Shown here: piece by piece, positions 1-27,981 of the stretch
How the letters are laid out: each line of letters opens with the position of its first letter
How positions within the stretch are numbered: position 1 is the stretch's first letter
Source of the DNA: Variovorax sp. 54
Lineage (GTDB): Bacteria > Pseudomonadota > Gammaproteobacteria > Burkholderiales > Burkholderiaceae_C
DNA: 64,000 bases
NCBI RefSeq assembly: GCF_002754375.1
Contig: NZ_PEFF01000001.1
Location: 2,872,501 to 2,936,500, forward strand
Direction: 5' to 3'
The notes under the pieces: model-generated
Seen by the model: only the letters and a program-made list of their open reading frames with translations
What the model was told of the DNA's origin: nothing
The model's database searches: none
Position numbers and translations under genes: made by a program

Positions 1-440
1 TAGTTGCCCTTGGGCTTGACCTTGAGCACCTCGCGCGCCTCCATGCGCCCGACCTCGACGTTGTCGAAGGTGATGTAGAACACGCCCGGCGCCTCGATCA
101 GCCGGTCGTACGCCACCACCGGCACCTTCTGCCGCGTGGCCTTCGTCACGGCGGGCAGGATCGCGTCCTTGTCCATCGCCAACACGATGAGCGCCTTCGC
201 GCCCTTGGACATCAGGCCCTCGATGTCGCCCAGCTGCTTCTCGGGCGAGCCGCCCGCATCGGCACTGATGTACTTCGCGCCGAGTTTTTCAAGCTGCGCC
301 TTGATCGCGGCCTCGTCGGTCTTCCAGCGTTCTTCCTGGAAGTTGGACCAGCTCACGCCGACCACGGTCTGCGCCATCGCGCCCACGGCCGTGAGACCGA
401 ACGCCAGGGCGGCCAGGGTGTGTTTCGTTGTCAGTTGCAT
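1..440 (-). CDS. xylF: D-xylose ABC transporter substrate-binding protein XylF (5' part only)
   Basis: Periplasmic sugar-binding protein that delivers D-xylose (or a related pentose) to an ABC permease. About 146 N-terminal residues are visible; the gene runs off the left edge. The start ATG (438-440, complement) follows a GAGGAGAG ribosome site, and the first residues form a classical signal peptide ([19 protein letters not shown], cleavage after GAMA). The mature part carries the type 1 periplasmic-binding fold typical of Xyl[17 protein letters not shown] at the ligand lobe, [18 protein letters not shown], and VVAYDRLI followed by [15 protein letters not shown], which lines up well with the E. 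coli XylF segment containing YDRMI and FDNEKVG. A 9-bp-arm palindrome lies about 50 bp upstream. Family assignment is secure; xylose as ligand is inferred from similarity seen by eye. Confidence 0.85.
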
Positions 441-491
441 CGGTGTCTCTCCTCAGAACGGTTTGCCGAGCGTGACGCTGGCGTGCCGGGG

Positions 492-518
492 TAGTTAGTT
501 TGAGTGGCGAACTAACTA
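492..518. promoter_or_regulatory. Perfect palindrome upstream of xylF, probable operator
   Basis: TAGTTAGTT at 492-500 and AACTAACTA at 510-518 are exact inverted repeats separated by 9 bases. The centre lies 65 bp upstream of the xylF start codon. The arms are AT-rich in a GC-rich setting, which makes chance unlikely. The size fits a dimeric repressor or activator of the xylose operon; which regulator is unknown because the gene is not in the window. Confidence 0.55.
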
Positions 519-589
519 TCCCATCGGGTGGGGATTCCGGGCACCCGGGAATTCCCGGACGGCGCTGGGCGCCGCAGATACAAATGGAA

Positions 590-805
590 AACTCTGGGGA
601 CAGTTTCCGGACAAGCCCCCTGTTATCCACAGCGGAAGCGACCGCGCCCAAGTTGTTCCTTTTTTGATAGCACCTCGGAAGCAGGGGAGCACACAGTGTC
701 CAAGGTGCGGCAAGTCGTTGTCAGGCAAGGAAAAAAGTGCCCTGTCCACAGGGCGGGTTTACCCTTATCTACTACTACTAACTTAAATAAGAAGAATAAA
801 TAGAG
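590..805 (+). other. Replication-origin-like region (DnaA boxes, GC cluster, DnaA-trios, AT-rich tract)
   Basis: This is the core of a 438-bp gene-free stretch (441-878) between xylF and a tetR gene. Reading left to right: a perfect DnaA box TTATCCACA at 623-631; a second box CTGTCCACA at 742-750 (7 of 9 matches); a GC-rich spacer GGGCGGG..ACCC at 751-764; a partial box TTATCTACT at 765-773; then CTACTACTACTA at 769-780, which on the complementary strand is a run of 3'-GAT-5' trios; then an AT-rich purine-biased tract 781-802. The order DnaA box, GC cluster, DnaA-trios, AT-rich unwinding element is the published bacterial basal origin unwinding architecture. dnaA, dnaN, rpmH and parAB are not seen here, so this could be a displaced or relict oriC, a DnaA-titration site or coincidence. 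The rest of the stretch (519-589, 806-878) shows nothing I can name. Confidence 0.5.
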
Positions 806-878
806 AAGAGAGCCGGAAGCCCGCAGGCGCAAGGGCGCCCCTGAAGGGGTGGCAATGCCGCCCCAGCGCTCGCGCGGG

Positions 879-1610
879 TCAGGCCTTTTTGCGCCGGGTC
901 GTGGCGCCCGCCGTCGCCTTGCGCGCGGGCAACTCCGCCTCCACCAACGCCAGCGTGCGCGCCGAAGGCGGCGCTTCGAGCACGCCTTGCAGCGTGTCCA
1001 TCACGTTGGAGATGGTGTAGCTGCGTTCCCAGAAACGGCTGGGGTCCTCGCTGTCTTTCGAAGACTCCCAGGCCGCCCACACGGCGTTGCCGTAGATGTT
1101 GCCCGCCAGGGTCAGGCGTTGCTCCAGGATCGGTGCGGGCATGTCGGGCAGCAGCCGCGCCAGGTGCGCGAAGCAGCGCTTGTAGCCGGCGTTCCACTTG
1201 TCCTCCAAGGCCTCGCGCAGGAACGCACGGTTGTTGAGCTGCAGGTTCGCGATCAGGCGGATGTAGGTGGCCTGACCCGTGCGCTCCGACAGCTCGAGCA
1301 GCGGCAGCGTGAGCGCGTCCAGCACGCTGGGCAGGGTCACGTTGCCCTCGCGTTCAAGCACGTCGAGCATGGCCTGGCGTATCTCGTCGATGACGCGCGC
1401 GCCGTCCACGACCAGCTCGCGTGCCAGCTCCAGCTTGTTGCCGAAGTAATAGCGCAGCGACGCGTTGTTGCGCTGCTCGGCGGCCGAGACGATGTCCTGC
1501 ACCGACACGCCGTCGATGCCGCGCAGCGCAAACAGCCGCTGCGCTTCTTCCTTCAGTCGCGCACGCGTCTCGATGCCGTCCGCACGAAGGGTTTTTACCG
1601 ATGGGGCCAT
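879..1610 (-). CDS. TetR/AcrR family transcriptional regulator
   Basis: A 243-residue one-component repressor of TetR type. The N-terminal helix-turn-helix domain spans about residues 10-60 (EAQRLFALRGIDGVSVQDIV followed by ASLRYYFGNKLELARELV, the typical recognition helix and YYF-x-K-x-L motif). The remainder is an all-helical ligand-binding domain; the C-terminus is lysine/arginine rich (TTRRKKA). The gene is divergent from the flavin monooxygenase/esterase fusion gene, and the 60-bp gap holds a near-perfect palindrome (1629-1652), so it most likely represses itself and that operon until an aromatic or ester ligand binds. The ligand is unknown. The start was taken at the ATG ending at 1610, which gives a normal TetR N-terminus. 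Confidence 0.88.
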   Translation of the reverse strand: MAPSVKTLRADGIETRARLKEEAQRLFALRGIDGVSVQDIVSAAEQRNNASLRYYFGNKLELARELVVDGARVIDEIRQAMLDVLEREGNVTLPSVLDALTLPLLELSERTGQATYIRLIANLQLNNRAFLREALEDKWNAGYKRCFAHLARLLPDMPAPILEQRLTLAGNIYGNAVWAAWESSKDSEDPSRFWERSYTISNVMDTLQGVLEAPPSARTLALVEAELPARKATAGATTRRKKA

Positions 1611-5159: not shown

Positions 5160-6182
5160 ATGGAATCGAATCTTCCCCCCCACGCCGGCGAGGTGCTGTA
5201 CCGCGTCATGGTGCGCATCCGCGCCTTCGAGAACGCCGCCGAAACCGCCAGCCAGGGCGGGGTCAGTGCCTACGGCCAGCAGGCGGGCGGCGCCGCCAAG
5301 GTGCGCGGGCCGCTGCACCTCTCGACCGGGCAGGAGGCCGTGCCGGCGGGCGTGTGCGCCCACCTGCGCACGAGCGACTACCTCACCTCCACGCACCGCG
5401 GCCACGGCCACACGCTGGCCAAGGGCGCGGACCTCACGCGGATGATGTGCGAGCTGTTCGGCAAGGCCACGGGCTTCAACGGCGGCAAGGGCGGCTCGAT
5501 GCACATCGCGGACTTCTCGGTCGGCATGCTGGGCGCCAACGGCGTGGTCGCGGCGGGCTTGCCGATCGCCGTCGGCGCGGCGCATGCGCAAAAACTCTTG
5601 AAGCGCAGCGACGACATCACGGTCTGCTTCTTCGGTGATGGCGCGATCAACCGCGGACCGTTTCTCGAAGCGCTGAACTGGGCGCGCGTGTACGACCTGC
5701 CCGTGCTCTTCGTCTGCGAGGACAACCGCTGGAGCGCGACCACCGCGAGCGGCCCGATGACGGCCGGTGATGGCGCCTCGGCGCGCGCTGCGTCGATGGA
5801 CATCGCGGCGACGCAGGTCGACGGCAACGACGTGTTCGCGGTGCATTCCGCCGCGCAGCGGCTGGTGGCCGAGGTGCGCAGCGGCGCGGGGCCGCGCCTG
5901 CTGCACGCGCTCACCTACCGCGTGAAGGGCCATGTGTCGGTCGACCTCGCGGCGTACCGCGACCCGGCCGAGCTGGCGGCCGCGCTGGAGACCGACCCGA
6001 TCGCGCGCGCCCGCGGCCACCTGCTCGACACGGGCGTGGCCGCTGCGACGCTCGACGCCATCGAGAACGCCGCGCGCGACGAGGTGGACACCGCCCTCGC
6101 CGTGGCCGACGCGGCGCCCTGGCCCGAGGCGAGCGCCGCCTTCACCGACGTGCAGACCACGGGAGCAGGCCAATGGCTGTGA
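5160..6182 (+). CDS. Thiamine-diphosphate-dependent dehydrogenase E1 component, alpha subunit
   Basis: A 340-residue E1-alpha subunit of the 2-oxoacid/acetoin dehydrogenase family. It carries the ThDP/Mg2+ motif, GDGAINRG with the downstream Asn in EDNRW, and the family signature RGHGHTLAKGAD with GGKGGSMHI. GGAG ribosome site 5 bases before ATG 5160. The beta subunit gene overlaps its 3' end by 10 bases. No E2 or E3 gene follows, so the complex must borrow these from elsewhere, or the pair works as a stand-alone ThDP enzyme. AcoA (acetoin) is the nearest family flavour; a branched-chain or pyruvate substrate cannot be excluded. Confidence 0.87.
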   Translation: MESNLPPHAGEVLYRVMVRIRAFENAAETASQGGVSAYGQQAGGAAKVRGPLHLSTGQEAVPAGVCAHLRTSDYLTSTHRGHGHTLAKGADLTRMMCELFGKATGFNGGKGGSMHIADFSVGMLGANGVVAAGLPIAVGAAHAQKLLKRSDDITVCFFGDGAINRGPFLEALNWARVYDLPVLFVCEDNRWSATTASGPMTAGDGASARAASMDIAATQVDGNDVFAVHSAAQRLVAEVRSGAGPRLLHALTYRVKGHVSVDLAAYRDPAELAAALETDPIARARGHLLDTGVAAATLDAIENAARDEVDTALAVADAAPWPEASAAFTDVQTTGAGQWL

Positions 6183-20020: not shown

Positions 20021-21010
20021 TCAACGCTTGTCGAGACCGGCCGGCGGCCAGCTTTCAAGCTTCATACCAAGGGTCAGACCGCGCGAAGCGAGGACTTCCT
20101 TGATTTCGTTGAGCGACTTGCGACCCAGGTTCGGGGTCTTGAGCAGCTCGTTTTCGGTGCGCTGGATCAGGTCACCGATGTAGTAGATGTTTTCGGCCTT
20201 CAGGCAGTTGGCCGAACGCACCGTCAGTTCGAGTTCGTCGACAGGGCGCAGCAGGATCGGATCGAATTGCTGGGCGCTGCGCGGTGCGGGTGCATCGAAT
20301 GCAGCGAGTTCGCCGCCTTCGAGCTGCGCAAACACGGCGAGCTGTTCAACCAGGATTTTAGCCGATGCGCGAACCGCATCTTCGGCGCTGATCGCACCGT
20401 TGGTCTCGATCTCGACCAGCAGCTTGTCCAGGTCGGTACGCTGTTCGACACGGGCGCTTTCGACGGTGTAGCTCACGCGCTTGACGGGCGAGAACGACGC
20501 GTCCAGAACGATACGGCCGATCGACTTGGTCGGCTCGTCAGCGTAGCGGCGCATCGTGCCGGGCACATAGCCGCGACCCTTTTCGACCTTGATCTGCATG
20601 TCGAGCTTGCCGCCTTGCGACAGGTGCGCGATCACGTGGTCAGGGTTGATGATCTCGACGTCGTGCGGGGTCTGGATGTCCGATGCGAGGACCGGGCCTT
20701 CGCCGTCCTTGCGCAGGCTCAGCGTGACTTCGTCGCGGTTGTGGAGCTTGAACACCACGCCCTTGAGATTCAGCAGGATGTTGACGACATCTTCCTGCAC
20801 GCCGTCGATCGACGAGTACTCATGCAGAACGCCAGCGATCGTGACTTCGGTGGCCGAGTAGCCGACCATGGACGACAGCAGAACGCGACGCAGCGCGTTG
20901 CCGAGCGTGTGGCCGTAGCCGCGCTCGAAAGGTTCGAGCGTGACCTTGGCCTTGTTGGCGGCAAGTTGCTCGACCTGGATGGTCTTGGGTTTCAGCAGGG
21001 TGGTTTGCAT
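20021..21010 (-). CDS. rpoA: DNA-directed RNA polymerase subunit alpha
   Basis: A 329-residue alpha subunit, normal length. The N-terminal assembly domain shows [20 protein letters not shown] and [20 protein letters not shown]; the C-terminal domain has the UP-element/activator-binding helix-hairpin-helix [20 protein letters not shown]. Located between rpsD (142 bp away) and rplQ in the alpha operon. Confidence 0.97.
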
Positions 21011-21152
21011 GCAGACTTCCTCTCAATACCCCCGGCTCGTTACACCGGTAAGGCTGGTGAAGCGCCTGATCCGCAACAGAGTGCGGAGCAGGAACGTGAA
21101 CAACAATATCAATCTCCCGCCGGCGCAAAGACGCGCAGGCGGGTAGAGAAAA

Positions 21153-21776
<624 letters not shown>

Positions 21777-21906
21777 GGTATTTCCTTGGTGTCATCTGCC
21801 GCAGTTGCCTGCGGGAGCCGTCGGCGAATGTGCCGATGGCGGTGGGCTTAGTGAAAAAACAAATGCGCAGCCGCTCGAAAGCTGGCTGCGCCTTGCGGAC
21901 TGACGA

Positions 21907-22311
21907 TCAGATGCGGCGACGCTTCTGGGGACGGCAGCCGTTGTGCGGAACCGGCGTCACGTCGGCAATGGAATTGATCCGGATGCCGAGCGCAGCCAGG
22001 GCGCGCACCGACGACTCGCGACCAGGACCGGGGCCCTTGATCTCGACGTCGAGGTTCTTGATACCTTGTTCGACAGCAGCACGGCCGGCCACTTCGGAAG
22101 CGACCTGCGCAGCGAACGGGGTCGACTTGCGCGAGCCCTTGAAGCCCTGGCCACCCGACGAAGCCCACGACAGGGCGTTGCCCTGGCGATCGGTGATCGT
22201 GATGATGGTGTTGTTGAACGAGGCATGCACGTGGGCGATACCGTCCGCAACGTTCTTGCGAACCTTCTTGCGAACGCGCTGTGCGGCGTTGTTTGCAGGT
22301 GCTTTAGCCAT
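21907..22311 (-). CDS. rpsK: 30S ribosomal protein S11
   Basis: A 134-residue platform protein of the 30S subunit. Alanine-rich start, then [20 protein letters not shown] and [20 protein letters not shown], ending in the conserved [16 protein letters not shown]. Twelve bp after rpsM in the alpha operon. Confidence 0.97.
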
Positions 22312-22323
22312 GCTTGTCTATCC

Positions 22324-22689
22324 TTATTTCTTCAGGGACTGCGCAGCCTTGCGCGGACCCTTGCGGGTGCGGGCGTTGGTGCGCGTGCGCTGGCCGCGCA
22401 TCGGCAGGCCGCGACGGTGACGGAAGCCGCGATAGCAGCCGATGTCCATCAAACGCTTGATGTTCATCGTCGTCTCGCGACGCAGATCGCCTTCGATCGT
22501 GAACAGAGCGATCTGGTCGCGGATCTTTTCGAGATCAGCGTCGGTCAGATCCTTGATCTTCTTCGAATATTCGATGCCGCTCGCTTCGCAGATTTGACGG
22601 GCGCGGGTGCGACCGATACCGAAAATGGCGGTCAGGCCGATTTCAGCGTGCTTGTGCGGCGGGATGTTGATGCCAGCAATACGTGCCAT
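22324..22689 (-). CDS. rpsM: 30S ribosomal protein S13
   Basis: A 121-residue 30S head protein. [20 protein letters not shown] at the N-terminus and [20 protein letters not shown] in the C-terminal tail are diagnostic. Follows rpmJ by 23 bp and starts the alpha part of the cluster. Confidence 0.97.
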
Positions 22690-22712
22690 GTGCGTCCTCT
22701 AATACTCTTCAA

Positions 22713-22826
22713 TCAACCCTGGCGCTGCTTGTGGCGCGGGTCGGTGCAAATCACACGCACCACACCTTTACGGCGGATGACCTTGCAATTACGGCAGATG
22801 GTTTTGACCGAAGCCGAAACTCTCAT
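22713..22826 (-). CDS. rpmJ: 50S ribosomal protein L36 (zinc-binding form)
   Basis: A 37-residue protein starting [20 protein letters not shown] and ending RHKQRQG. Cys11, Cys14, Cys27 and His32 form the zinc ribbon of the C+ form. It lies between secY and rpsM; no infA is found in this interval, unlike in some related clusters. Confidence 0.95.
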
Positions 22827-22890
22827 TTCATTCTCCTAAAACTGTTTAACGTGGCGGTCTACCGCCCGGACTCAATACTGAAACACAGCC

Positions 22891-24204
22891 CTACGATGTC
22901 TTGAAGTTAGCCTTCTTCAGCAGCGATTCGTACTGCTGGGACATCATGTAGTTTTGCACCTGGGCCATGAAGTCCATCGTGACGACCACGATGATCAGCA
23001 GGGAGGTACCACCGAAGTAGAACGGCACGTTGTACTTCAGGATCAGGAACTCGGGCAGCAGGCAGACGAAGGTGATGTACACCGCGCCGGCCAACGTCAG
23101 GCGAACCAGAATCTTGTCGATATAGCGAGCGGTCTGGTCACCCGGGCGAATGCCAGGAATGAACGCACCACTCTTCTTCAGGTTATCGGCCGTTTCCTTG
23201 CTGTTGAACACGAGTGCCGTGTAGAAGAAGCAGAAGAAAACGATCGCAGCAGCGTACAGCAGCACGTAGATCGGCTCGCCCGGACGCAATGCGCTGGCGA
23301 TGTCCTTGATCCAGCGGAAGCCACCGTCACCAGCGCTGAACCAGCCCACCACCGTTGCCGGCAGCAGAATGATCGACGACGCGAAGATCGGAGGAATCAC
23401 ACCGGCCATGTTCAGCTTCAGGGGCAGGTGCGACGACTGACCGCCGTAGACCTTGTTGCCAACCTGGCGCCGCGCATAGTTCACGAGGATCTTGCGCTGA
23501 CCGCGTTCCACGAACACCACGAAGTAAGTGACCAGCACCACGACAGCGATGATGAAGAGCGCGACGATGGGGTTCATCGCACCGGTCGTCACCAGCGAAG
23601 CCAGGCCACCGATGGCACCCGGGAGACCGGCCGCGATACCTGCAAAGATCAGGATCGAGATGCCGTTGCCCAGGCCGCGTTCGGTGATCTGCTCGCCGAG
23701 CCACATCAGGAACATCGAACCAGCGGTCAGGCTCACCATGGCGGTCAGGCGGAAGCCGAAACCGGGGGCGATCACCAGACCAGCCGACGATTCGAGGGCC
23801 ACTGCGATGCTGAACGACTGGAACAGAGCCAGGCCGAGCGCGCCATAGCGCGTGTACTGCGTGATCTTGCGGCGACCGGCCTCGCCTTCCTTCTTCAATT
23901 GCTCGAAGGTAGGAAGCACGTAGGTCATCAGCTGCATGATGATCGACGCCGAGATGTACGGCATGATCCCCAACGCGAACACGGTGAAACGCGACAGCGC
24001 CCCGCCCGAGAACATGTTGAACAGGCTCAGAATGCCGCCCTGCTGGCCCTGGAACAACGCTGCCAGCTGGTCCGGGTTGATACCCGGCACAGGAATGTGC
24101 GCGCCAATCCGATAGACCACGAGCGCGAGCAGCAAAAAGACGAGCCGACGACGGAGGTCGCCGAACTTGCCCGTTTTTGCGATCGTTGCCGCGTTAGTTG
24201 CCAC
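22891..24204 (-). CDS. secY: Preprotein translocase subunit SecY
   Basis: A 437-residue inner-membrane channel subunit of the Sec translocon with ten hydrophobic spans. Diagnostic stretches: [40 protein letters not shown] (plug and TM2 region), [20 protein letters not shown] and [20 protein letters not shown]. Lies between rplO and rpmJ, its standard place in the spc operon. Confidence 0.97.
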
Positions 24205-24231
24205 GAAGAACTTCTTTCAGTCCGAAGGTGA

Positions 24232-24663
24232 TCAGGCGAAGCTGCCACCGGCTGCTTCGATCGCAGCCTTGGCACCAGCGGTCGCACCCACGCCCGTCAG
24301 CTTGACGGCCTTGGTGAGCTCACCGGTCTTGATGATCTTGACGACCTTGGCGAGCTGGCCCACGAGGCCGGCTTGCTTCAGTGCCAGGACATCGACTTCG
24401 GCCAGGCCGAGCTGCTCGAGAGCAGTCAGCGTGACTTCGGCGTTGTACTTCAGCAGGTGCGACTTGAAGCCACGCTTCGGCAGGCGACGCTGCAGCGGCA
24501 TTTGACCGCCTTCGAAGCCGACCTTGTGGAAACCGCCTGCGCGCGACTTCTGGCCCTTGTGACCGCGACCTGCGGTCTTGCCGATGCCGGAGCCGATACC
24601 GCGGCCGACGCGACGCTTGGCGTGCTTGGCGCCAGCTGCCGGCTTGATGCCATTGAGTTCCAT
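24232..24663 (-). CDS. rplO: 50S ribosomal protein L15
   Basis: A 143-residue protein. [20 protein letters not shown] followed by the Gly/Lys/Arg-rich [20 protein letters not shown] and [20 protein letters not shown] are diagnostic of L15. Eleven bp after rpmD, 27 bp before secY. Confidence 0.97.
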
Positions 24664-24674
24664 ATCAGTCTCTC

Positions 24675-24857
24675 TTACAGAACTTTGACCAGATAACTGA
24701 TCTTGTTGATCATGCCGCGCACTGCGGGCGTGTCTTGCAGCTCGCTCACGCTGTTGAGCTTGCGCAGGCCGAGGCCACGCACGGTCGCGCGATGCGATTC
24801 CTTGGTGCCGATCGGGCTCTTCACCAGCTGCACCTTGAGGGTTTGTTGTTGCGTCAT
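24675..24857 (-). CDS. rpmD: 50S ribosomal protein L30
   Basis: A 60-residue protein: [20 protein letters not shown] and [20 protein letters not shown], the full single L30 domain. Between rpsE and rplO as in the standard spc order. Confidence 0.96.
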
Positions 24858-24892
24858 TTGAATGCTTCCTTCAGCCTTGCGAGAGCTTGCGC

Positions 24893-25411
24893 TCAGGCGA
24901 AGATTTCTTCGACGGTGAGACCGCGCTTGGCAGCCACATTGCCGGCCGTCGTCGAGTTCTTCAACCCGTCGAGCGTGGCGCGAACCATGTTGTAGGGGTT
25001 CGACGAACCATGGCTCTTGGCCACGATGTCGGTGATGCCCATGACTTCGAACACGGCGCGCATCGGGCCGCCGGCGATGATGCCGGTACCCTTGGGGGCC
25101 GGATACATCACGACTCTGGCGGCACCATGATGGCCTTGCACCTGGTGGTGCAGCGTGCCGTTCTTGATCGCAGCCTTGAACAGGTTGCGACGGGCTTCTT
25201 CCATTGCCTTCTGCACGGCAGCAGGCACTTCCTTCGACTTGCCCTTGCCCATGCCGACGCGGCCTTCACCGTCACCGACCACGGTCAGTGCTGCGAAACC
25301 GAGGATACGACCACCCTTCACCACCTTGGTGACGCGGTTGATCGCGATCATCTTCTCGCGCAAACCGTCCTCAGGACCTTCGTTCTGCGTTCTTGCTTGA
25401 ATCTTTGCCAT
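24893..25411 (-). CDS. rpsE: 30S ribosomal protein S5
   Basis: A 172-residue protein with the double-stranded-RNA-like S5 N-domain ([40 protein letters not shown]) and the C-terminal domain ([20 protein letters not shown]). Follows rplR. Confidence 0.97.
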
Positions 25412-25429
25412 TTTGAATCTCGTGTCCGA

Positions 25430-25798
25430 TTAGAACTGCAGACCGGCTTCGCGGGCTGCCTCGGCCAGCGCCTTGACGCGGCCGTGGTAGGCGAAACCTG
25501 CGCGATCGAAAGCGACCTTCTCGACGCCGGCAGCCTTCGCCTTTTCAGCGATGCGCTTGCCGATGGCGGTGGCAGCGGCGGCATTGCCACCCTTGCCCGA
25601 GGCGCCGAGTGCTGCGCGCACTTCGGCTTCGGCGGTCGATGCGGTTGCGATCACCTTGGTGCCGTCGTCGGAGATGACGGTGGCATAGATGTGCAGGTTG
25701 GTGCGGTTCACCGTGAGGCGAGCCACGCCCTGCGTCGCAATGCGGATGCGGGTCTGGCGCGAGCGGCGAAGACGCTGTGCTTTTTTGGTCAACATCAT
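25430..25798 (-). CDS. rplR: 50S ribosomal protein L18
   Basis: A 5S-rRNA-binding protein of 121-122 residues. [20 protein letters not shown] at the start and [20 protein letters not shown] at the end are diagnostic. Two adjacent ATG codons (25798 and 25795) compete; family members usually begin MLTKK, which favours the second, but a GGGG site fits the first better. Confidence 0.96.
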
Positions 25799-25809
25799 TT
25801 TGCTGCCCC

Positions 25810-26343
25810 TTACTTCTTCTTGGTCTCTTTGATCACGATCTTCTCGTCCGAATAACGGATGCCCTTGCCCTTGTAAGGCTCAGGCGGACGAACAGCGCGG
25901 ATCTCAGCGGCGATTTGACCAACGCGCTGACGGTCAGCACCCTTGATCACGATTTCGGTCGGGGTCGCGGTGGTCACCGTGATGCCTTGCGGCATGTCGA
26001 TGTTGACCGGGTGCGAGTAACCGACTTGCAGGTTCAACTTGTTGTTGGACGCTGCAGCCTTGTAGCCGACGCCGACCAGGTTGAGCTTCTTCTCGAAGCC
26101 CTTGGTCACGCCAACCACCATGTTGTTCACCAGCTGACGGATCGTGCCGCTCATCGCATTCGCTTCACGCGATTCGTTGGCGGGCTCGAAGCTCAGCTTG
26201 CCGTCATTGCTGACGACATTCACCAGCGCATTGCGAGCCAGGTTGAGCGTGCCGCCCGTGCCCTTGACGCTGATCTGGTCTTCCTTGATCGACACATCCA
26301 CACCTGCGGGGATGGCGACCGGCATTTTTCCTACTCGGGACAT
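25810..26343 (-). CDS. rplF: 50S ribosomal protein L6
   Basis: A 177-residue protein: [20 protein letters not shown] at the start and [20 protein letters not shown] at the end, the conserved L6 signature. Between rpsH and rplR. Confidence 0.97.
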
Positions 26344-26367
26344 TTCAGTAACTCCTCGATGTCTCGG

Positions 26368-26763
26368 TTAGGCGACGTAGCACAGAACTTCGCCACCGAC
26401 ACCGGTAGCGCGAGCCTTGCGGTCGGTCATCACGCCCTGGGGGGTCGTGACGATCGCAACGCCGAGGCCGTTCTGGACTTGCGGGATGGCAGCGCTGGCC
26501 TTGTAGACGCGCAGGCCGGGGCGGCTCACGCGCTCGATACGTTCGATGACCGGGCGGCCAGCGTAGTACTTCAGCGTGATGACGAGTTCGGACTTGCCGG
26601 CATCGGTCTTCACTTCGAAGCCGTCGATGTAGCCTTCGTCCTTCAGGACTTGTGCAATCGCAGCCTTCACCTTGGAAGACGGGATCGACACAGTGGGCTT
26701 CGCCACCATCTGCGCGTTACGGATACGCGTCAGCAGGTCGGCAATGGGATCACTCATGCTCAT
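26368..26763 (-). CDS. rpsH: 30S ribosomal protein S8
   Basis: A 131-residue 16S rRNA-binding protein. [20 protein letters not shown] and the C-terminal [20 protein letters not shown] are diagnostic. In E. coli S8 is the translational repressor of the spc operon. An AGGAG site 8 bases before the first ATG supports the longer start over the internal MSDPIAD. Confidence 0.97.
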
Positions 26764-26783
26764 GTTGTTTGCTCCTGCCTGGC

Positions 26784-27089
26784 TTACCAGCTGGCCTTGG
26801 TGACACCGGGGATGTCGCCAGCGAAAGCCAGTTCACGGATCTTGGCGCGAGCCAGACCGAATTGACGGAAGGTGCCACGGGGGCGACCGGTGATTGCACA
26901 ACGGTTGCGCTGGCGCGTGGGGTTCGCGTTGCGCGGGAGCTTCTGCAGGGCCAGACGGGCCACTGCACGCTCTTCGTCGCTCTTCTTCGCGTCGTTGGAA
27001 ATTGCCTTCAGCTCAGCGTGCTTCGCAGCGAACTTGGCAACCAGCTTGTCGCGCTTGAGTTCGCGCTGGATCAAAGATTGTTTGGCCAT
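26784..27089 (-). CDS. rpsN: 30S ribosomal protein S14
   Basis: A 101-residue S14 of the long zinc-free form: [20 protein letters not shown] and [20 protein letters not shown] without the CxxC pairs. Between rplE and rpsH. Confidence 0.97.
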
Positions 27090-27097
27090 GGTTCGCC

Positions 27098-27637
27098 TCA
27101 GTTCTTGAACGGGAAACGGAAGCCAGCGAGAAGCGCCTTGGCTTCTTCGTCGGTCTTGGCCGTCGTCGTGATGCTGATATTGAGACCGCGCAGGGCGTCG
27201 ACCTTGTCGTACTCGATCTCAGGGAAAATGATCTGCTCTTTGACGCCGATGTTGTAGTTGCCACGGCCGTCGAATGCGCGACCCGAGATACCACGGAAGT
27301 CACGCACGCGGGGCAGGGCCACGGTGACGAAACGGTCCAGGAACTCGTACATGTGCACGCCACGCAGCGTGACCATGCAGCCGATCGGCTGGTTTTCGCG
27401 GATCTTGAAGCCGGCGATGGCCTTCTTCGACTTGGTGACCACAGGCTTCTGGCCAGCGATCTTGGTCAGGTCGGCGACAGCGTTGTCGAGGACCTTCTTG
27501 TCGGCGACTGCTTCACCCACACCCATGTTCAGGGTGATCTTGGTGAGACGCGGAACTTGCATCGGCGACTTGTAGCCGAACTTTTCCGTCAGGTCTTTCG
27601 CGATCTTTTCGCGATAGTGTTGTTGGAGACGTGCCAT
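27098..27637 (-). CDS. rplE: 50S ribosomal protein L5
   Basis: A 179-residue 5S-rRNA-binding protein: [20 protein letters not shown] and [20 protein letters not shown] are diagnostic. Eight bp before rpsN, eleven bp after rplX. Confidence 0.97.
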
Positions 27638-27648
27638 GTGAGTACCTC

Positions 27649-27981
27649 TTAGGCGAACTTGATTTCGTCGCCGCTCGACTTGAAGACGCGAACAGCCACG
27701 CGCTTGCCGTCGGCACCTTGGGTGACCTTGATGCCCACGCGATCGGCCTTGCCGGTCGCAGCATTGAAGATCGCCACGTTGGATTGGTGAATAGGCATGG
27801 TCTTCTCGACGATGCCACCGGTCGTGCCCTTGAGGGGGTTCGGCTTGGTGTGCTTCTTGACGAGGTTGATGCCGTCGACGATCACATGCGAATCGTCTGC
27901 GCGCAGCGACACGACGCCGCGCTTGCCCTTGTCACGACCGGCCAACACGATGACCTGGTCGCCTTTGCGAATCTTGTTCAT
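27649..27981 (-). CDS. rplX: 50S ribosomal protein L24
   Basis: A 110-residue assembly-initiator protein with an N-terminal KOW motif ([20 protein letters not shown]) and [20 protein letters not shown]. Twelve bp after rplN. Confidence 0.97.

Follow-up and report, generated by a model that had tools for sequence, protein, structure and literature searches.

A second oriC-like element conserved in Variovorax chromosomes: a putative duplicated origin of replication

The element between xylF and a tetR-family gene

The stretch of DNA analysed (the window, 64,000 bp) comprises bases 2872501-2936500 of the single-contig, 6.64 Mb genome of a Variovorax strain. Near its left end, as an earlier, preliminary description of this DNA had it, a 438-bp intergenic gap extends from the start codon of a xylF gene (position 440) to the end of a tetR-family gene (position 879), and within the gap is an element, here termed copy B, the features of which are listed in Table 1. 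The left neighbour was identified from a 146-aa XylF fragment, and its match to TIGR02634 is below the full-length cut-off because the gene is cut by the window edge. Elsewhere the window carries ribosomal protein operons with rpoA and secY (20021-27981, all on the minus strand, named by eye) and a Type VI secretion-like cluster (about 35693-60438; VgrG-, ClpV- and TssB/TssC-like genes, also named by eye). No Rfam match was obtained for positions 380-940 at E values up to 1. A protein-coding reading via an open reading frame at 528-803 (plus strand), which overlaps the element, was rejected because the frame starts in unconserved flanking sequence and because relatives show single-base gaps within the element.

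Table 1. Features of copy B and its neighbours (window positions), and clusters of origin copies in other genomes (genome:contig:positions)
Feature	Position	Strand	Remarks
Left neighbour, XylF-like D-xylose binding protein, cut by window edge	1..440	-	TIGR02634, E 1.9e-43
Whole B element (second oriC copy)	586..809	+	right edge approximate, 803-809; alignment of 21 B and 15 A copies
Left conserved block GGAAAACTCTGGGGACAG	586..603	+	mean conservation 0.92 (21 B), 0.96 (15 A)
DnaA box 1, TTATCCACA	623..631	+	exact consensus; conservation 0.98 B, 1.00 A
Conserved block CAAGTCGTTGTC	711..722	+	conservation 0.95 B, 0.93 A
DnaA box 2, CTGTCCACA, trio-proximal	742..750	+	2 mismatches to TTATCCACA; conservation 0.97 B
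GGGTTTACCC, GGGT-NN-ACCC inverted repeat, B-specific	755..764	+	between box 2 and trios
TTATCTACT, box-like 9-mer	765..773	+	2 mismatches; overlaps first trio; kept in A too
Four CTA units (CTACTACTACTA), DnaA-trios 3'-GAT-5' of the other strand	769..780	+	
AT-rich tract, presumed unwinding element	781..809	+	23/29 A/T
Right neighbour, TetR-family regulator	879..1610	-	weak match to TetR-type models, best E 5e-14
Clustered origin copies	G001:C36:130397-132442; G106:C1:322209-324268; also G132:C82, G022:C353		

In an alignment of 21 B copies with 15 copies of the A type (see below), similarity sets in at 586 and fades after about 803-809; the element that had been placed at 590-805 is thereby borne out, although it begins further left than was thought. 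The exact-consensus DnaA box TTATCCACA, the second box CTGTCCACA with its two mismatches, the trio run CTACTACTACTA and the AT-rich tract are all present, as in the preliminary description. The left block GGAAAACTCTGGGGACAG is found also in A, C and other-genus origins, and CCCTTAT within the TTATCTACT region reaches a conservation of 0.99 in B and 1.00 in A. The A/T content of the tract is attained at only four separate places in the window, CTACTACTACTA occurs twice, counting both strands, in 1,196,001 sampled bases of the 6,642,361-bp genome (once in copy B and once in the second copy described below), and DnaA boxes with at most one mismatch have a density of 0.025 per kb in six sampled stretches. 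The rarity of CTACTACTACTA and of DnaA boxes in the sampled genome, together with a single genome-wide match to the element, argues that the architecture of copy B has not arisen by chance.

The basal unwinding system is defined by at least three DnaA-trios (NAN, consensus 3'-GAT-5'), a DnaA box with at most two mismatches upstream of them and an AT-rich tract behind them. Copy B provides four CTA units, CTGTCCACA as the upstream box (with a perfect box also at 623-631) and the tract at 781-809. The blocks do follow the published order, as had been proposed, but the distance of 18 bp between box 2 and the first CTA slightly exceeds the published range, since the search program for this system allows 0-16 bp from the first located box to the first trio (PMC8287927); the box-like TTATCTACT overlaps the first trio. 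The 18-bp distance is shared by 23 of 24 A, 4/4 C and 5/5 other-genus origin copies examined, and is 14 bp in the three D copies. A further mark of an origin, a location at a skew switch and next to dnaA or another replication gene, is not displayed by copy B; as the preliminary description noted, dnaA is not nearby, and lies 356 kb away.

Origin copies in the genus and the family

A search of the genome with window positions 441-880 returned exactly one other place, at 3259227-3259457 on the opposite strand (73% identical, E 3e-29), 386 kb from copy B. This copy A is situated between creB (NF008296, above its cut-off) and a gene for which no NCBIfam model supplies a name and which is labelled terB-like here; dnaA (3229501-3230877) and two parS sites are each 28 kb from it. 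Among 11 genomes examined, parS sites lie 18-31 kb from A in the ten that have A by terB, the eleventh, G135, being different, and no exact parS was found near B in the B-bearing genomes examined, where the sites are near A (in G038 a third site is located elsewhere). Copy A is likely to be the main origin of the chromosome. The genome's own dnaA-dnaN gap (89-90 bp; L001 2512-2600) contains no DnaA box; its AT/GA-rich end resembles the ends of dnaA|dnaN origins in other species and is perhaps a remnant of a lost ancestral origin.

An exact 21-base piece of the element was detected at 12 loci (10 strains) in a scan of a genome collection, all of them in Variovorax, and a first similarity search matched 57 of 61 genomes of the genus and none of 40 genomes from other families of the order. 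Across the whole genus, 97 of 101 genomes match the window element and 98 of 101 a dnaA|dnaN-type element; these matches can be sorted into A (at creB|terB, some 28-34 kb away from dnaA), C (at dnaA|dnaN), B and a remainder of further copies. Within the family a C-type query matched 76 of 250 genomes, three of which belong to the genus itself, in a search that scored three candidates per genome, so that copy numbers there are lower bounds. Sixteen of the 17 other-genus loci tested, among 20 loci listed, are flanked by dnaA and dnaN, making this the likely ancestral place of the origin and the A site a later one. The expectation that origins of this group adjoin dnaA thus stands for those 16 loci and fails for the present genome, in which A is 28 kb removed. 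At the remaining locus (G211, L200) the element is found beside a terB homologue instead, and a creB|terB-type place may therefore be older than the genus.

Other arrangements of origin copies were also encountered. Ten genomes have one copy at dnaA|dnaN and a second 30-34 kb off (G002, G019, G021, G023, G024, G027, G044, G054, G127 and G135, the second copy being beside creB in the last of these), and it is possible that these represent two-origin chromosomes of another layout. Clusters in which the copies are separated by between a few hundred bases and 1.2 kb (Table 1) consist of three in G001 and G106 and of two in G132 and G022. In another genus of the family, origin-like copies are present at 280052 and 304590 of G271:C3, about 24 kb apart, one of which (L205) is at dnaA|dnaN.

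Copies of the B type, which were found by whole-length similarity and grouped by tree, were detected in at least 17 of the 101 genomes of the genus, amounting to 21 copies: one each in 14 genomes, two in G007 and G016, and three in G118. In at least 84 genomes the whole-genome search, on which absence rests, found none. An A-type copy accompanies B in 16 of the 17, the exception being G110, which is 86% complete and also lacks a dnaA match. In a midpoint-rooted tree of 57 elements (21 B, 24 A, 4 C, 3 D and 5 from other genera, all but the B rows being a selection), the B copies are monophyletic (support 100/99, and 100% of 200 bootstrap trees) and nested among the A copies. Homology to an origin of the same or a related genome, one of the marks by which an oriC is recognized, is thus provided by the 73% identity to A and by the tree, and copy B is almost certainly a paralogue of oriC. 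Of the possibilities raised in the preliminary description, that of a duplicated origin is strongly supported, since the chromosome has a second, homologous copy and such copies form a monophyletic family.

When the genes within 7 kb of each of the 21 copies are considered, five B neighbourhoods can be distinguished (11, 5, 2, 2 and 1 copies), and no gene is common to all five. The first, in 11 genomes, is defined by XylF and/or the gene at window positions 5160-6182, an E1-like dehydrogenase subunit as judged by eye (both in six genomes, only the latter in three, only XylF in two); the bases immediately beside B are barely alignable across these genomes. First-neighbourhood (B1) copies on the same contig as A are 362-465 kb from it in eight genomes (G000, 386 kb; G038, 362; G046, 396; G136, 448; G128, 384; G016, 401; G115, 371; G137, 465), and the distance is 310 kb for a second-neighbourhood copy (B2) in G122. 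With G118 set apart, B is on the dnaA side of A in all nine genomes with a shared contig (range 310-465 kb), and its AT-rich end is toward A in seven of them (not in G128 and G136), as it is in all three B copies of G118. The latter genome has four origin copies in total, and its B copies are 1.05, 1.23 and 2.03 Mb from A. B-bearing genomes were also observed to be larger (median 7.3 vs 6.6 Mb, p 1e-4; 16 vs 73 genomes, all at least 95% complete, after exclusion of 12 that fell short of this), in a comparison of rounded sizes that is not corrected for relatedness.

Sequence constraint and strand bias

Conservation of copy B stands out sharply against that of its surroundings. Between close relatives the element is 91-94% identical, whereas the flanks are 44-47% identical; for G000/G105 the element (586-803) has 204 of 218 positions identical as against 55 of 117 in the flanks (Fisher 1e-21), and for G000/G038 the figures are 198 of 218 and 51 of 117 (Fisher 1e-20). 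Mean column conservation over the 21 B copies is 0.97 for the trios, 0.97-0.98 for the boxes, 0.75 for the spacers and 0.43 for the flanks. The trios are more conserved than the spacers (p 3e-4), as are the 'functional' columns when pooled (p 9e-12), the latter value being inflated because part of the 'functional' blocks was chosen after the alignment had been seen. The AT-rich tract is not significantly above the spacers in B (0.83, p 0.089) but is so in A (0.98, p 4e-4). Four CTA units are kept in 17 of 21 B copies and the others have 5, 3, 3 and 2; the changes in trio number in G128 and G048 are of whole units of three, and the two-CTA copy arose by one substitution that preserves the NTN pattern. 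Taken together, these alignments indicate that copy B is very probably under selection. The constraint is real but weaker than that on A, since B is the more divergent of the two in all six genome pairs compared (for G000/G038, 198 vs 215 of 218 positions identical).

The B family also has a motif of its own. GGGTTTACCC, located between box 2 and the trios, is present in 20 of the 21 B copies, and the remaining copy has it minus one base; it was found in none of the 36 non-B copies (0/24 A, 0/4 C, 0/3 D and 0/5 other-genus). These counts are to be read with the caveat that similarity to the window favours motif-bearing copies and that sharing partly reflects common descent. Within B, GGGTTTACCC is as constant as the trios, and the four bases preceding it vary. 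It occurs once more in a sampled 1.2 Mb of the genome, at 4630384. From its position, we infer that GGGTTTACCC is a putative site controlling the passage of DnaA from box 2 to the trios. At the level of sequence comparison, then, alignments and tree show paralogy to oriC, a single origin of the B family, selective retention of boxes and trios, and a conserved B-specific motif.

Plain GC skew is too weak in the genus, and oligomer and third-position skews were used, which come from sampled stretches and are noisy. A first oligomer score switches sign across A (-0.16 to +0.21) and is about zero near B. When both gene orientations are averaged, third-position T/A skew amounts to -0.043 in the left arm and +0.060 in the right arm; the A-B interval, at -0.031 +- 0.021 (12 stretches), is left-arm-like, and the matching interval gives -0.036 +- 0.025 (8 stretches) in G033, which is without B, and -0.036 +- 0.021 (10 stretches) in G128, which has it. 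The oligomer score of the A-B interval (-0.041 +- 0.037) is intermediate between those of the arms (-0.157 and +0.100), being +0.028 +- 0.037 in the half next to A and -0.110 +- 0.053 in the half next to B, and the T/A skew left of B is near zero (-0.003 +- 0.023). No second skew switch is seen in the half-interval or left-of-B values, none of which is strong. The ribosomal protein operons 19-28 kb to the right of B, on the minus strand, are transcribed in the direction of forks coming from A and would meet a rightward fork from B head-on. A search of 11 genomes for dif with a XerCD-type pattern found no site. Strand skew, the position of parS and the direction of the ribosomal operons speak against B firing regularly in both directions. 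All three marks would look the same with an origin that is weak, conditional or fires in one direction.

Copy B as a proposed duplicated oriC

We interpret copy B as a duplicated, origin-competent second oriC that is normally weak or conditional, its activity being putative; this is the reading we lean towards, by a modest degree, and on balance B is predicted to work by initiating replication at least sometimes. It is proposed that an ancestor of part of Variovorax copied the oriC at the creB/terB site (A) to a site some 300-470 kb away, and that the copy retained the left block, box 1, the middle blocks, box 2, the trios and the AT-rich tract, acquired GGGTTTACCC before the trios, and was then maintained by selection; in some species B would have been copied again to other sites. 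As in the basal unwinding system, DnaA would load on box 1 and box 2 and from there extend along the trios, so that B could open, and GGGTTTACCC would be placed where this extension could be gated. Retention of the trios suggests a function beyond duplex box binding, since a site acting through double-stranded boxes only would not need them. B would fire rarely or under some condition, with A remaining the main origin. A bolder version, which we hold only tentatively, is that of a multi-origin Variovorax clade in which B, as a genuine second origin dependent on DnaA, would lie dormant or act conditionally and be licensed or blocked via GGGTTTACCC, the family having expanded to up to three additional copies on one chromosome.

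The main rival explanation, rather unlikely in our estimation, is that B is an origin-derived DnaA control site analogous to datA or DARS that never loads helicase. Such a site might bind and perhaps oligomerise DnaA, sequestering it or altering its nucleotide state, and its dose would double once a fork from A had travelled the roughly 390 kb to it. In Escherichia coli the positions of datA and DARS relative to oriC are described as conserved and as mattering (PMC5010248), and these loci are reported to carry much of DnaA titration (PMC12371093). The fairly constant position of B (362-465 kb from A in eight genomes, 310 kb for G122 B2, and on the dnaA side in 9/9) is in keeping with a control site, and the lack of a skew imprint and the faster evolution of B than of A fit a non-initiating role. 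However, the trios have been kept in number and phase, which duplex-box binding leaves unexplained, one perfect and two two-mismatch boxes in the 438-bp gap would make a poor sink, and the copies of G118 at 1.05, 1.23 and 2.03 Mb indicate that the distance is not always kept. Copy B shares with datA, DARS1 and DARS2 (PMC5010248) an intergenic setting and DnaA boxes, and its distance from oriC is fairly constant outside G118; trios, AT-rich tract and homology to oriC are retained in B.

The remaining alternatives fare worse. Conservation of the element against diverged flanks, boxes and trios conserved above the spacers, and a motif of its own make a relict, a recent insertion or a sole oriC unlikely. 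An inserted mobile or plasmid-type replicon, past or present, would accord with the spread over five neighbourhoods and the presence of as many as three copies in one genome, but these neighbourhoods have no companion gene in common, B nests within chromosomal A copies, and no match to B was found in 72,556 plasmid records at E 1e-5; we regard it as improbable. A neutrally decaying relict of a duplicated origin, one of the options in the preliminary description, is largely refuted and has very little left to recommend it: B does evolve faster than A, and the search detected no B copy in at least 84 of the 101 genomes, but the contrast in identity between element and flanks (Fisher 1e-20 to 1e-21), the B-only motif in 20 of 21 copies and the persistence of copies in 11 species at one neighbourhood despite turnover of adjacent genes all speak against decay. 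That B is the main oriC and A the extra copy, or in the earlier wording the true oriC after rearrangement, is the least probable of all, for although B too is a full element and local strand skew is weak in the genus, the strand-biased oligomer score flips at A and not at B, dnaA and parS (18-31 kb away) are with A, and A is found in many genomes that lack B, the reverse being seen in only one, incomplete genome (G110, 86% complete). It had been suggested that the proposal would fall if an oriC lay elsewhere and the stretch were not conserved in close relatives; an oriC does lie elsewhere, but the stretch is conserved.

Several known systems bear comparison with the duplicated oriC proposed here. 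Copy B resembles the Comamonadaceae oriC with its basal unwinding system (PMC8287927) in block order, 18-bp spacing, trios and homologous sequence, and differs from it in not being beside dnaA, creB or parS, in having GGGTTTACCC, which is absent from the 36 non-B copies examined, and in a constraint weaker than that on A. Two origin-like regions per chromosome are also a feature of the putative double origins of Gao (2015; PMC4403523), which were predicted from boxes and skew by requiring neighbouring replication genes, a switch in skew and a minimum of three boxes with no more than one mismatch; B displays none of these, yet is a true paralogue, as judged by homology, that is conserved across species. 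The four chromosomes given in that account as putative double-origin chromosomes by prediction do not include one from Variovorax. The Vibrio cholerae strains NSCV1 and NSCV2 likewise have two origins on one natural chromosome, one of which can be silent though functional (PMC6284228), but there oriC and a plasmid-type ori2 were joined by chromosome fusion, whereas in Variovorax one oriC would have been duplicated. The bipartite origins of Bacillus subtilis and Helicobacter pylori also have more than one DnaA-box region per chromosome; these are two sub-regions around dnaA (PMC4403523), whereas B is a complete additional element at a distance of 386 kb. No publication on Variovorax origins was found by title or abstract in searches for oriC, replication origin and dnaA, the coverage of which leaves out most subscription journals.

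Bacterial chromosomes investigated so far are described as starting replication from a single origin, and the reason for this has been asked (PMC7174701); the natural occurrence of multiple origins has been posed as an open question (PMC4403523). The mobility of oriC is illustrated by its place at dnaA|dnaN in other genera and at creB|terB or dnaA|dnaN, plus further copies, within Variovorax. The genus offers a conserved, lineage-specific, putatively duplicated oriC, with related species that do and do not have B and named strains that carry it, among them V. boronicumulans NBRC 103145 and V. guangxiensis DSM 27352, and thereby a way to test whether more than one start site can exist on a natural bacterial chromosome. 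If the bolder version is true, this would be the first natural bacterial chromosome shown to have duplicated oriC-type origins kept by selection.
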